Assembly: GCA_025350915.1 (NCBI GenBank)
Contig: JANXWX010000059.1
Coordinates: 1-36,623, forward strand
DNA length: 36,623 bases
Source: Nitrosomonadales bacterium
GTDB taxonomy: Bacteria; Pseudomonadota; Gammaproteobacteria; Burkholderiales; Gallionellaceae
Reading direction: 5' to 3'
The stretch's first letter is position 1. Every line of letters starts with the position of its first letter. The notes below the pieces were generated by a model, which was not told the origin of the DNA, did not search any database, and worked only from the letters and a program-made list of their open reading frames with translations. The position numbers were made by a program, and so were the translations under genes. Positions 25,131 through 27,849 of the stretch are shown here, piece by piece.

Positions 25131-25943
25131 TCAGATAGAAGTACTCAATTCAGGTGTAAGTATCAATTCTGCTTCCAGCTCTTTTTGACACATTGGCAGG
25201 TTTAACGCGGTTCCTATTACCAATTCAGCTTCTTGCGCCAATTCTCGTCTGGTTTTGCCATGCGTCGAAATCGGTGAATTAAACACCGTTTCTGCATAGA
25301 TAATTTGCTGACTTAATACCTTAAACAGTGAATCAGTAAAGCTCATCTCATCCACATAAGCGGTGGCAGAATTCAAGCTTCCATCCTTGTGCGTATAGCG
25401 AATGGCAACTGGCCAGATTTTGCAGTCACAATGTACAGCAGGTTGCAATAACGATGCATGAAAGGGGCGCAACATGCTGCCATCACTGGTTGTTCCTTCG
25501 GGGAATATCGCCACACATCCGCCACTGCTCAAAATAGCGGTGATTTGATGATTGACCCGAGCGGTATCGTGGCGCTTGGTACGGTCTATAAACAGGGTGC
25601 CGGTCTTGTGAGCCAACCAGCCGATAAGGGGCCAGGAGCGTACTTCAGCCTTTGAAACAAAGTTGACTGGCCTGACTGCATTCAGCAGATAAATATCCAG
25701 CCATGAAATATGATTGGCAACCACAAACATGCTATGCACAGACAAGTCTGGTGCCACGCCGTGCATACGGATATGGATATTCAGGAGACTTAATAAATTG
25801 CGATGCCAGCGATGTTCAATGCGCAAGCGGGTTTGAGCTGACACCCAGGGAAACGCCAGTAGCACGAGTACAACTCCTTGCAGCAGGTGCAAGACCAAAC
25901 GCAACATTCTGAAAATGCGTACCCAATAACTGCTTGGCTTCAA
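25131..25943 (-). CDS. olsA: 1-acyl-glycerol-3-phosphate-type acyltransferase, probable lyso-ornithine lipid acyltransferase OlsA
   Basis: PlsC-family O-acyltransferase. The 270 residues show a hydrophobic N-terminal helix (about 14-34), block I NHISWLD (H78 and D83 of the HX4D site), block II-like GTLFIDR and block III FPEGTTSDGS. As the second gene of a pair with olsB it most likely adds the second acyl chain to lyso-ornithine lipid at the inner membrane. A plain PlsC role in phosphatidic acid synthesis remains possible. The frame begins at a TTG three bases after the olsB stop, suggesting translational coupling; an ATG at 25907 is an alternative start. Confidence 0.8.
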   Translation of the reverse strand: MKPSSYWVRIFRMLRLVLHLLQGVVLVLLAFPWVSAQTRLRIEHRWHRNLLSLLNIHIRMHGVAPDLSVHSMFVVANHISWLDIYLLNAVRPVNFVSKAEVRSWPLIGWLAHKTGTLFIDRTKRHDTARVNHQITAILSSGGCVAIFPEGTTSDGSMLRPFHASLLQPAVHCDCKIWPVAIRYTHKDGSLNSATAYVDEMSFTDSLFKVLSQQIIYAETVFNSPISTHGKTRRELAQEAELVIGTALNLPMCQKELEAELILTPELSTSI

Positions 25944-25946
25944 TGT

Positions 25947-26699
25947 TTATTTACCCAAAAAGTGTTTTGCATAACGCTTATTTAACCGTGACATGGGCAA
26001 AAGTACAAGCAAATCTGCCGTATTAAAATCGGGATCCCAAGCCGGGTCGCCGCAAACATAGGCTCCCAGGCGCAGATAGCCTTTAATCAGGGGAGGAGCA
26101 AACACGTCCGCTTTATCAACCAACGCTGCATAGGGCAGTGCGCAAATCGGCGTTACTCTCCATTCAACCGGCCCCATACTTTCTGCTTTTATATTGCTAT
26201 AGATGTTGGCAGCGTTATGGCCGCCATCGGCCATGCTAATGCTGGCACAGCCAATCAGGTAATCATAGTTATGATTCACCATGTATTGAGCCATGCCGGC
26301 CCATAACAGCGTAATCACGCCCCCATCCCGGTAGTCCGCATGGACACATGAACGGCCAACCTCAACCAGGCTGCTGCGCAGATTTTCCAAACGGGACAAG
26401 TCAAACTCTCCCTCGGAATAATAGCCGCCAGCCTTTAAGGCTTGCTCAGGCGACAATATACGATAGGTGCCAACAACTTCATTGGTATTTTCATCACGCA
26501 CCAGCAGATGATCGCAATAAAAATCATACCTGTCCTGATCAAGTCGCTCTTCTTTACCGGGCATTTTTGCGCCCATTTCTTCGGCAAAAATCTTGTAGCG
26601 CAGTTTTTGCGCTTCACGCACTTCATTTTCAGTACGAGCCAATGATACTGAAAATTTTGGTTTTTCTTTATGTAAGGCCTGTGTTTGCAGTTGTAACAT
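25947..26699 (-). CDS. olsB: L-ornithine N-alpha-acyltransferase OlsB
   Basis: GNAT-fold acyltransferase that transfers a 3-hydroxyacyl group from acyl carrier protein to ornithine, the first step to ornithine lipid. The 250 residues show the family features: LRYKIFAEEMGA near 33-44, the DRYDFYCDHLLVRD region, VVGTYRILSPEQA, GGYYSEGEFDLS, and EVGRSCVHADYRDGGVITLLWAGM as acyl-binding region. ATG 26699 has a strong AAGGAG. It is followed by olsA after three bases. Upstream lie Pho-box-like repeats, fitting the known induction of ornithine lipids by phosphate limitation in several proteobacteria. Confidence 0.87.
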   Translation of the reverse strand: MLQLQTQALHKEKPKFSVSLARTENEVREAQKLRYKIFAEEMGAKMPGKEERLDQDRYDFYCDHLLVRDENTNEVVGTYRILSPEQALKAGGYYSEGEFDLSRLENLRSSLVEVGRSCVHADYRDGGVITLLWAGMAQYMVNHNYDYLIGCASISMADGGHNAANIYSNIKAESMGPVEWRVTPICALPYAALVDKADVFAPPLIKGYLRLGAYVCGDPAWDPDFNTADLLVLLPMSRLNKRYAKHFLGK

Positions 26700-26705
26700 A
26701 ATTTC

Positions 26706-26730
26706 TCCTTATCAATAATTTTGATAAGGA
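26706..26730 (-). promoter_or_regulatory. 10-bp palindrome covering the olsB ribosome binding site
   Basis: TCCTTATCAA and TTGATAAGGA form a perfect 10-bp inverted repeat with a five-base spacer. On the minus strand the downstream arm carries AAGGA of the olsB Shine-Dalgarno, and the upstream arm is its complement. If transcribed whole it would hide the ribosome binding site. If the start predicted from the -10 at 26732-26737 is right, part of the arm is not transcribed and the palindrome may instead be a protein-binding site. Confidence 0.5.
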
Positions 26731-26731
26731 A

Positions 26732-26787
26732 AGATTACGCATCTGCTGTGACAGTGAGGTTACAGCGTTGTTAAACTTTGGTTAACA
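26732..26787 (-). promoter_or_regulatory. Tandem Pho-box-like repeats and -10 upstream of olsB
   Basis: Read on the minus strand, 7-base units TGTTAAC, GTTTAAC, CTGTAAC and CTGTCAC begin at exact 11-base steps with 4-base spacers (26781-26787, 26770-26776, 26759-26765, 26748-26754). PhoB sites are direct repeats of CTGTCAT at 11-base steps. The last two units fit well, the first two less so. A -10-like TAATCT (26732-26737) follows ten bases after the last unit, the spacing known for PhoB-activated promoters. Regulation by PhoB is inferred. Confidence 0.6.
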
Positions 26788-26792
26788 GCGGA

Positions 26793-27248
26793 CTAAATAT
26801 ACCTGCCTACTGTGCCCATTGCTATCGTTAACAAGCCAATCGTTAAATTCAGCGCTATCAGCTTTCTGATCGTACCGAGCACGCCGGCTGCAGCTGGCCA
26901 TTCCTGCTTGGAAACCATCCGGTTAAACTGAACGTAACATTTAAAATATACGTAAATGTATATTGCGATCATCACCAGCCCCATCAGGAACATAAGATTG
27001 ATATACAAAGGCAGATGCGCAAAACCGCCCAGCAGGTAAATCATATAAAAACCGCTAACCAAAATCAGAAAAATCGAAATCCAGACCCAGTTGAAAAAGC
27101 GGCTAAAAGATTTATCCCACAAACGCAGTCTTTCTGGCGGCTGCAATACTTCAGCTGCAGTGGGACGCAATACAACGTACGCAAAAAACATTCCGCCTAC
27201 CCAGACAACAGTAGCCAGCAAATGGATGAGTTTCATGAAAAACATCAT
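26793..27248 (-). CDS. CopD-like integral membrane protein
   Basis: A 151-residue protein with four hydrophobic segments (about 5-27, 53-75, 82-103 and 128-149). The first holds HLLATVVWVGGMFFAYVVLRP, the His-containing signature of the CopD/YcnJ-like membrane family. Those proteins are linked to copper or haem-related functions, but many are uncharacterised, and no copper gene is nearby. ATG 27248 has AGGAG at good spacing. It lies between rnhB (31 bases upstream) and olsB, at the tail of the lipid A cluster. Function unknown. Confidence 0.78.
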   Translation of the reverse strand: MMFFMKLIHLLATVVWVGGMFFAYVVLRPTAAEVLQPPERLRLWDKSFSRFFNWVWISIFLILVSGFYMIYLLGGFAHLPLYINLMFLMGLVMIAIYIYVYFKCYVQFNRMVSKQEWPAAAGVLGTIRKLIALNLTIGLLTIAMGTVGRYI

Positions 27249-27279
27249 AGGATTCTCCTTTTTAAATTAACGCCAATTA

Positions 27280-27849
27280 TTACAATAATTCACGCACGGG
27301 TCTGAAACTTTTACGGTGCTCGGGTGAAATGCCGTGCAACTTTAGTGCAGCCATATGCGCTGCAGTTGGATAGCCTTTGTGGGCATCAAATCCATACTGG
27401 GGATAGCTTTCATGCATCTGTAACATGGCGAGATCGCGTGCGGTTTTGGCAAGAATAGAAGCGGCTGATATTGCTGCCACACTGCTGTCTCCCTTAACAA
27501 TTGCCCGACTGCTAATTCCCGTATCGGGGCAATACAATCCGTCTACCAGTACTTCATCAGGACGAATTGCAAGCCCTTCTACTGCGCGTTTCATCGCCAA
27601 CAGGCTGGCCTGCAGAATATTAATTTCATCAATTTCCGTTGCTGAGGCTGTGGCGACCGCCCAAGCGATGGCATGTTGACGTATTTCAATAGCCAACTGC
27701 TCGCGTTTACGTTCACTCAGCTTCTTTGAATCACCCAATCCTTCAATTGCAAAATCCGGATCAAGAATCACCGCTGCCGCATACACCGGTCCGGCCAGAG
27801 GTCCTCGTCCCGCCTCATCGACCCCGCAAACAAAAAAAGTGGTGGTCAT
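27280..27849 (-). CDS. rnhB: Ribonuclease HII
   Basis: Cuts RNA in RNA/DNA hybrids and removes misincorporated ribonucleotides. The 189 residues show the active-site [14 protein letters not shown] (D11, E12), [13 protein letters not shown], the VDGLYCPD region with the third acidic residue, and [21 protein letters not shown]. Its ATG overlaps the lpxB stop as ATGA, so the two are translationally coupled, in the widespread order lpxA-lpxB-rnhB. Confidence 0.97.

Follow-up and report, generated by a model that had tools for sequence, protein, structure and literature searches.

The window analyzed here is a 36.6-kb stretch of DNA (coordinates 1-36,623) from a Nitrosomonadales bacterium, and the subject of this report is the leader of its olsB gene, which with the adjacent olsA forms a putative operon for ornithine lipid synthesis. 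On the minus strand, a -10 hexamer follows four Pho-box-like units of 7 bases each, and the DNA from this hexamer to just past the predicted transcription start specifies a strand that can pair with the olsB Shine-Dalgarno region. Among relatives the letters of the two strands differ from species to species and the pairing is kept, and we have hardly any doubt that this conserved pairing is real. PhoB control of ornithine lipid synthesis was to be expected, but a conserved stem with one strand supplied by the promoter was not. The parts of the leader are listed below in the order in which they are read, with half-site scores from a matrix derived from phoB.

26781-26787, minus strand: half-site 4, TGTTAAC, weak (-6.1 bits)
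26770-26776, minus strand: half-site 3, GTTTAAC, degenerate (-0.7 bits); relatives also have a phased third unit here
26759-26765, minus strand: candidate PhoB half-site 2, CTGTAAC (8.62 bits)
26748-26754, minus strand: candidate PhoB half-site 1, CTGTCAC, closest to the -10 hexamer (11.65 bits)
26732-26737, minus strand: -10 hexamer TAATCT, 10 bp (26738-26747) past the last half-site
26721-26732, minus strand: 5′ arm of the stem, TTTCCTTATCAA, 12 pairs with a loop of 5; positions 26726-26732 lie upstream of the predicted start
26725, minus strand: predicted transcription start, an A, seventh base past the -10 hexamer (+/-1-2 bases), placed by sigma-70 geometry
26704-26715, minus strand: 3′ arm of the stem, TTGATAAGGAGA, which holds the Shine-Dalgarno sequence AAGGAGA (26704-26710); fold of -13.5 kcal/mol

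A conserved stem between promoter and Shine-Dalgarno region

The stem of the window (26704-26732) is an unbroken run of 12 pairs with one G-U, with a z of -4.95 against shuffled sequences. RNA beginning at the predicted start (26725) retains only a residual stem of 5 pairs (-1.3 kcal/mol), and its Shine-Dalgarno sequence is free. An initial annotation of this DNA, which covered the repeats and the -10 hexamer, did not include the stem. A pattern match to an intrinsic terminator at 26704-26732 (one found, 0.6 expected in shuffles) was rejected, its tail in the window containing the start codon. The same layout recurs in relatives with other letters, as CCTTATC/GATAAGG (genome G002), CCCCG/CGGGG (G004), and GTCTCC/GGAGAC (G012), and with the arms GTTTTACC/GGTAAAAC at locus L083.

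Conservation of the pairing was assessed by computing how well the upstream part of each leader pairs with the Shine-Dalgarno part of the same leader (own) and with the Shine-Dalgarno parts from every other species (foreign), a comparison that keeps composition. The first set began as 108 olsB leaders, 100 of them unique, and was reduced to 89 by removing 11 without a Shine-Dalgarno match; the ATG nearest the protein match was taken as the start codon. Own pairs came to -12.36 kcal/mol and foreign pairs to -8.43 kcal/mol (permutation z -15.5), and with one leader per cluster the values for 60 leaders were -11.69 and -8.28 kcal/mol (z about -11.5). Shuffles that keep composition gave p <=0.05 in 43% of these 60 clusters. 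The excess was limited to 12-base segments starting from -4 to +8, counted from the first base of the -10 hexamer, and peaked at +2; segments further upstream had |z| <2, and the segment at +10 had a z of -1.4.

Replication drew on an order-wide search that matched 296 genomes, from which 67 olsB places were taken: 27 new loci and 40 chosen mostly as one per genus. After the loss of 4 without a start preceded by a Shine-Dalgarno sequence, 10 like the first set, and 5 like each other, 48 leaders remained. The segment was fixed at the first-set peak (+2), and the only criteria for the start codon were promoter fit, a Shine-Dalgarno match, and preference for ATG; at least one start in the set (L289) is plainly misplaced. 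Own pairs came to -9.24 kcal/mol and foreign pairs to -5.88 kcal/mol (z -11.4). Segments at -24, -18, -12, and -6 gave z values of -1.1, 0.2, -1.7, and -1.6, and that at +10 gave -2.3. The two sets together hold 105 non-redundant leaders (z -15.7), with a foreign mean of -5.90 kcal/mol, and the own arm beats at least 95% of foreign arms in 38 of them.

Two kinds of control were compared. Leaders of other genes from the same loci, scored over the whole stretch from -48 to -16, had no excess in either of two gene sets (z +1.9 for 31 leaders, -0.8 for 113), which speaks against the stem as a general property of leaders. For the Pho genes, the comparison took in 27 phoB leaders out of 38 and 26 pstS loci out of 30. 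At the peak segment neither phoB (27 leaders, z -0.8) nor pstS (25 leaders, z -1.6) had an excess like that of olsB, which speaks against a property of Pho promoters as such. The phoB leaders did have a weak excess elsewhere, with z values of -2.5 from -48 to -16, -3.0 for the segment at -12, and -2.3 for that at -2.

The energetic consequence was computed as the cost of opening the last 15 bases of the leader, including the ATG. Averaged over the 105 leaders, this cost is 8.29 kcal/mol in the long RNA, 4.98 kcal/mol when the promoter segment is foreign, and 2.82 kcal/mol in RNA from the predicted start. The own segment gives a higher cost than foreign segments in 83 of the 105 leaders and a higher cost than the short RNA in 90. 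For the window itself, the figures are 14.25 kcal/mol (long RNA) and 1.02 kcal/mol (RNA from the predicted start).

The predicted Pho promoter of olsB

The step between successive units of the array (26748-26787) is exactly 11 bases. The coordinates, this spacing, and a TAATCT ten bases further on had all been given in the initial annotation and prove correct on the minus strand. All four units that it described as Pho-box-like repeats are phased, and the phoB-only matrix makes the inner two a strong box and leaves the outer two weak or degenerate. The region has the features expected of a PhoB promoter, namely at least two half-sites at 11-base spacing, a box in the place of the -35 element, and a -10 hexamer about 10 bp downstream, and a scan of the minus strand from 26600 to 27400 with the sigma-70 consensus detected no promoter.

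The weight matrix was built from phoB upstream regions only, from this genome and relatives, with olsB left out. Of 41 genomes (that of the window and 40 relatives), 38 have a PhoB above the family cut-off. A box that agrees with the consensus at 11 or more of 14 bases is present upstream of phoB in 33 of these, and these 33 regions form the matrix; the position of at least one (G029) makes it doubtful. The usual box of the same family is CTGTCAT-N4-CTGTCAC or near it, about 58-75 bases before phoB, and most same-family genomes have a -10-like hexamer ten bases past it. Scoring with such a matrix had been proposed as a check of the repeats, and the olsB site (26748-26765) ranks first in the window on both strands with 18.46 bits. 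The runner-up (27407-27424, plus strand, 15.58 bits) falls within rnhB and is probably a chance match. The array is also the best place in the window, on either strand, for two, three, or four phased units, and its score was never equalled when the 250-bp upstream region was shuffled 5000 times with dinucleotides preserved. Two units score 20.3 bits at 11-base spacing and at best 13.3 bits (spacing 14) at spacings of 8-10 or 12-14; three units score 19.6 bits and no more than -2.6 bits at the other spacings. The bare consensus is less telling: CTGTNAYNNNNCTGTNAY has 5 exact matches in the 2.97-Mb genome, the olsB site among them, and with one mismatch 46 matches, compared with 35 for a reversed control pattern, several of these places falling within genes. 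This weak genome-wide enrichment is weak evidence, and conservation is the stronger argument.

Repeats of 11 bases are also bound by other regulators of the OmpR family, so the geometry of the array alone is not specific to PhoB. Specificity for PhoB is instead indicated by the inner units, which match the boxes of phoB and pstS. CTGTAAC appears to be a natural variant of the Pho box, since many pstS upstream regions in these genomes, including one of the window's genome, have forms of TGTAAT-N4-TGTAAY. A search of the genome for phoB/phoR and further Pho boxes, suggested together with the repeats, turned up all of them. PhoB (352.9 bits by profile match) and PhoR (422.9 bits) are encoded by adjacent genes, CTGTCATGTAATTGTCAT lies directly upstream of phoB, and two pstS copies (PstS loci include L192 and L057) have a Pho-box-like site upstream. 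The genome encodes seven PstS-like proteins, six of them above the family cut-off; the same-genus genomes G001-G004 have 5, 8, 4, and 2, and the other 20 same-family genomes searched have 0 to 2. The box CTGTTATATAACTGTAAC occurs in the window's genome close to the ends of two contigs (G000:C115:6982-6999 and C167:11870-11887), where the downstream flanks are the same, and is probably part of a repeat that broke the assembly.

Conservation was judged on 80 named olsB loci, of which one had too short an upstream region; the remaining 79 are mainly betaproteobacterial, with one record titled Rhodospirillales, and L029, a weak match, was excluded from the relatives. Measured against the 5% level of random 200-base pieces from the same loci, 73 of 79 regions exceed it with two phased units, 78 with three, and all 79 with four. 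The nearest copies within the genus (G001, G002, and G004) keep the phased units, the 10-base gap, and a TAATTT or TAACTT hexamer, and the array is present in most of the named olsB upstream regions as well. In best fits of promoter plus array, the gap to the -10 hexamer was exactly 10 bases in 88 of 89 (9 and 11 being allowed at a small penalty). Because of the conserved array, the fixed gap, and nearby phosphate genes, PhoB control of olsB in this lineage is very likely, with binding itself predicted from the sequence, and we are confident that olsB has a genuine Pho promoter, one of a kind already known. The array is weak (about 1 bit for three units) and the stem absent at olsB of Methylophilaceae/Methylopumilus (L141, L144, and L147). 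L223 and L224, from one genus of small genomes, likewise have no stem, and their promoter fit is poor.

Proposed mechanism and alternatives

These observations suggest a mechanism in which phospho-PhoB on the phased half-sites would replace the -35 element and, when phosphate is scarce, RNA polymerase would start about 7 bases after TAATCT. RNA from this Pho promoter would be without most of the 5′ arm and would be translated. RNA from further upstream, whether from read-through or a spurious start, would carry both strands, fold, and hide the ribosome-binding site, and OlsB would be made only from PhoB-started messages. That the former RNA is translated and the latter silenced is proposed because their opening costs differ (8.29 vs 2.82 kcal/mol). 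Long transcripts are made possible by a co-directional gene upstream in the window. A lock on longer transcripts is, in our estimation, the most likely reading of the stem, one that we consider at least as probable as its negation. The whole explanation, PhoB-started olsBA together with a translational lock on longer RNA, seems to us somewhat more probable than not, with PhoB binding, the start point, and silencing as its inferred parts. Whether such two-key control of olsB is widespread in betaproteobacteria, with a start-site-gated lock that compensating changes have preserved across many families, we regard as evenly balanced.

Several observations weigh against a lock. The core of the Shine-Dalgarno sequence has a mean probability of being unpaired of 0.33 with the own arm, 0.38 with foreign arms (p 0.035), and 0.60 in the short RNA; the own-foreign difference is one of stem strength. 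Stems are no stronger behind co-directional genes (50) than behind opposite ones (21; p 0.5, with 18 unassigned and some calls doubtful), and clear stems stand beside divergent genes (Pfam matches at L131 and L084). The own arm is worse than the median foreign arm in 22 of the 105 leaders, and the leader of same-genus G001, in the first set, is practically stemless. The picture in more distant relatives, where 47 leaders were tried and 42 scored, is mixed. At 42-44% identity, 9 of 11 relatives, which we take to be Pseudomonas, have the array and TAGCCT, but their leaders are longer and own arms, the only ones scored, pair just moderately at that place (-6.4 to -9.2 kcal/mol). Of ten relatives at 39-45% identity, the eight that were scored gave no good promoter fit (score <10). 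Some distant leaders pair strongly (L243, -13.9; L238, -11.1), and in two nearer relatives (L229 and L230) hardly any pairing (-2.5 and -3.3) accompanies the array. The silencing of read-through from a neighbor as the sole purpose of the stem is not supported, co-directional and opposite contexts being alike.

Among other explanations, the one that survives best, though we consider it unlikely, is that the true start lies further upstream, so that the stem would sit inside the Pho transcript and act in cis on its translation, as RNA thermometers do. The stem does cover the Shine-Dalgarno sequence, as in known thermometers, and the start position is predicted. However, the near-invariant 10-base gap to the -10 hexamer speaks against this, and in many species the best pairing begins within the hexamer, outside any transcript from this promoter. 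The inverted repeat could instead act as DNA, as a repressor operator or a cruciform round the start site. Its palindromic form at the start site, and its occurrence beside divergent genes as well, would fit, but the letters of the arms vary widely among species, unlike those of a sequence-specific operator. In addition, DNA should treat G-U and A-C mismatches alike, yet own stems have 13 G-U to 6 A-C and foreign stems 76 to 117 (p 0.026, small counts). This excess of G-U over A-C favors RNA over a DNA operator, and we hold the DNA explanation to be improbable. Less probable again is that the repeats bind another OmpR-family regulator (PhoP-, PmrA-, or QseB-like) in place of PhoB: the genome has 53 response-regulator matches and the outer two units resemble boxes of the GTTTA type, but the inner units agree with the boxes that phoB and pstS have in this lineage, and the phoB-trained matrix picks out the site. 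Least credible of all is an ordinary Pho promoter whose stem is a by-product of pyrimidine-rich start DNA meeting a purine-rich Shine-Dalgarno sequence, because although foreign arms also pair somewhat and make the Shine-Dalgarno core almost as hard to reach, the own pair is about 3 kcal/mol better than foreign arms of like composition in two separate sets, the shuffles that keep composition point the same way, and the phoB and pstS promoters are without such pairing at that place.

Relation to known systems

Control of olsB by PhoB is not new in kind, since it has been described in Burkholderia sensu lato and Acinetobacter. One report places Pho boxes before olsB in Burkholderia sensu lato (PMC7814305), and another describes ornithine lipid in A. 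baumannii as made under phosphate limitation and lost in phoR mutants (PMC11828411). The likeness to the present case is Pho control; pairing of promoter and Shine-Dalgarno sequence is not mentioned in the available portions of these two papers (PMC7814305, PMC11828411). By analogy with the bacteria studied, olsB RNA and lipid would respond to phosphate here, as the initial annotation had predicted for a swap of phospholipid for ornithine lipid under phosphate starvation.

The closer parallel to the proposed lock comes from phage T4. As reviewed in PMC3014915, the ribosome-binding sites of gene e (lysozyme) and I-TevI are hidden when the long early transcripts fold, whereas gene e transcripts from promoters just upstream are without the 5′ strand and are translated, the late promoter region encoding that strand. 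Gene e thus has the same lock logic with a promoter-encoded 5′ strand (PMC3014915), and at olsB, too, the predicted promoter region supplies the 5′ strand of a stem that covers the Shine-Dalgarno sequence. The T4 case differs in being a phage timing device with demonstrated function, while olsB is a chromosomal starvation gene with a PhoB promoter and a proposed function. RNA thermometers and translational riboswitches also place a stem over the Shine-Dalgarno sequence, but the 5′ arm at olsB lies, given the predicted start, largely in untranscribed promoter DNA, and Rfam gave no match in the window from 26600 to 26900. No report of an olsB stem appeared among the matches listed in the literature searched, which mostly excluded subscription journals, and a search on ornithine lipid with Shine-Dalgarno turned up an Agrobacterium small RNA and no olsB stem.

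If the proposed lock is true, cells would guard tightly against ornithine lipid when phosphate is plentiful, and promoter sequence would be selectable for its effect in RNA that merely passes through. Own-versus-foreign pairing of the stretch from the -10 hexamer to the start with the Shine-Dalgarno region offers a simple rule for finding further locks, and it carries a warning that changes in a promoter can act via translation. The nearest named relative, a Gallionellales bacterium, suggests that lipids free of phosphate may be important in iron-rich water, in which phosphate becomes bound.

The olsBA operon and its neighbors

The genes next to the leader are the following.

25947-26699, minus strand: olsB, ornithine N-acyltransferase-like, 250 aa, ATG at 26699 (PF13444, 129.8 bits)
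25131-25943, minus strand: olsA, lyso-ornithine lipid O-acyltransferase-like, 3 bases past olsB (PF01553, 89.4 bits)
26793-27248, minus strand: CopD/DUF4149-like membrane protein, co-directional and a possible source of read-through (PF05425, 42.7 bits)

The assignment of an ornithine lipid operon downstream of the repeats is supported, as the adjacent OlsB-like and OlsA-like acyltransferases pass their Pfam cut-offs. Their best NCBIfam models are those of OlsB and OlsA, yet both scores are under the cut-off (194.5 vs 320 and 146.6 vs 300 bits). The model suffixes, BRUA and RHOCB, presumably mark lineage-specific models, and the missed cut-offs say little because the models seem made for particular lineages. 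The CopD/DUF4149-like gene ends 93 bases before olsB.

Among relatives, G015, G016, and G021 have pstS at a distance of about 3 to 4.1 kb from olsB, and G026 has olsB, pstS, and phoB all within about 8 kb. Divergent neighbors of olsB include polyphosphate kinase (L110), a PF04185 phosphoesterase (L107), and a metallophosphoesterase (L121), and these divergent phosphate genes may share the Pho box array. One contig of a same-genus genome (G004:C57) carries olsB twice (L003 and L030), on opposite strands and separated by about 4.5 kb; the copies are 79% and 62% identical to that of the window, and a Pho-like array stands before both.
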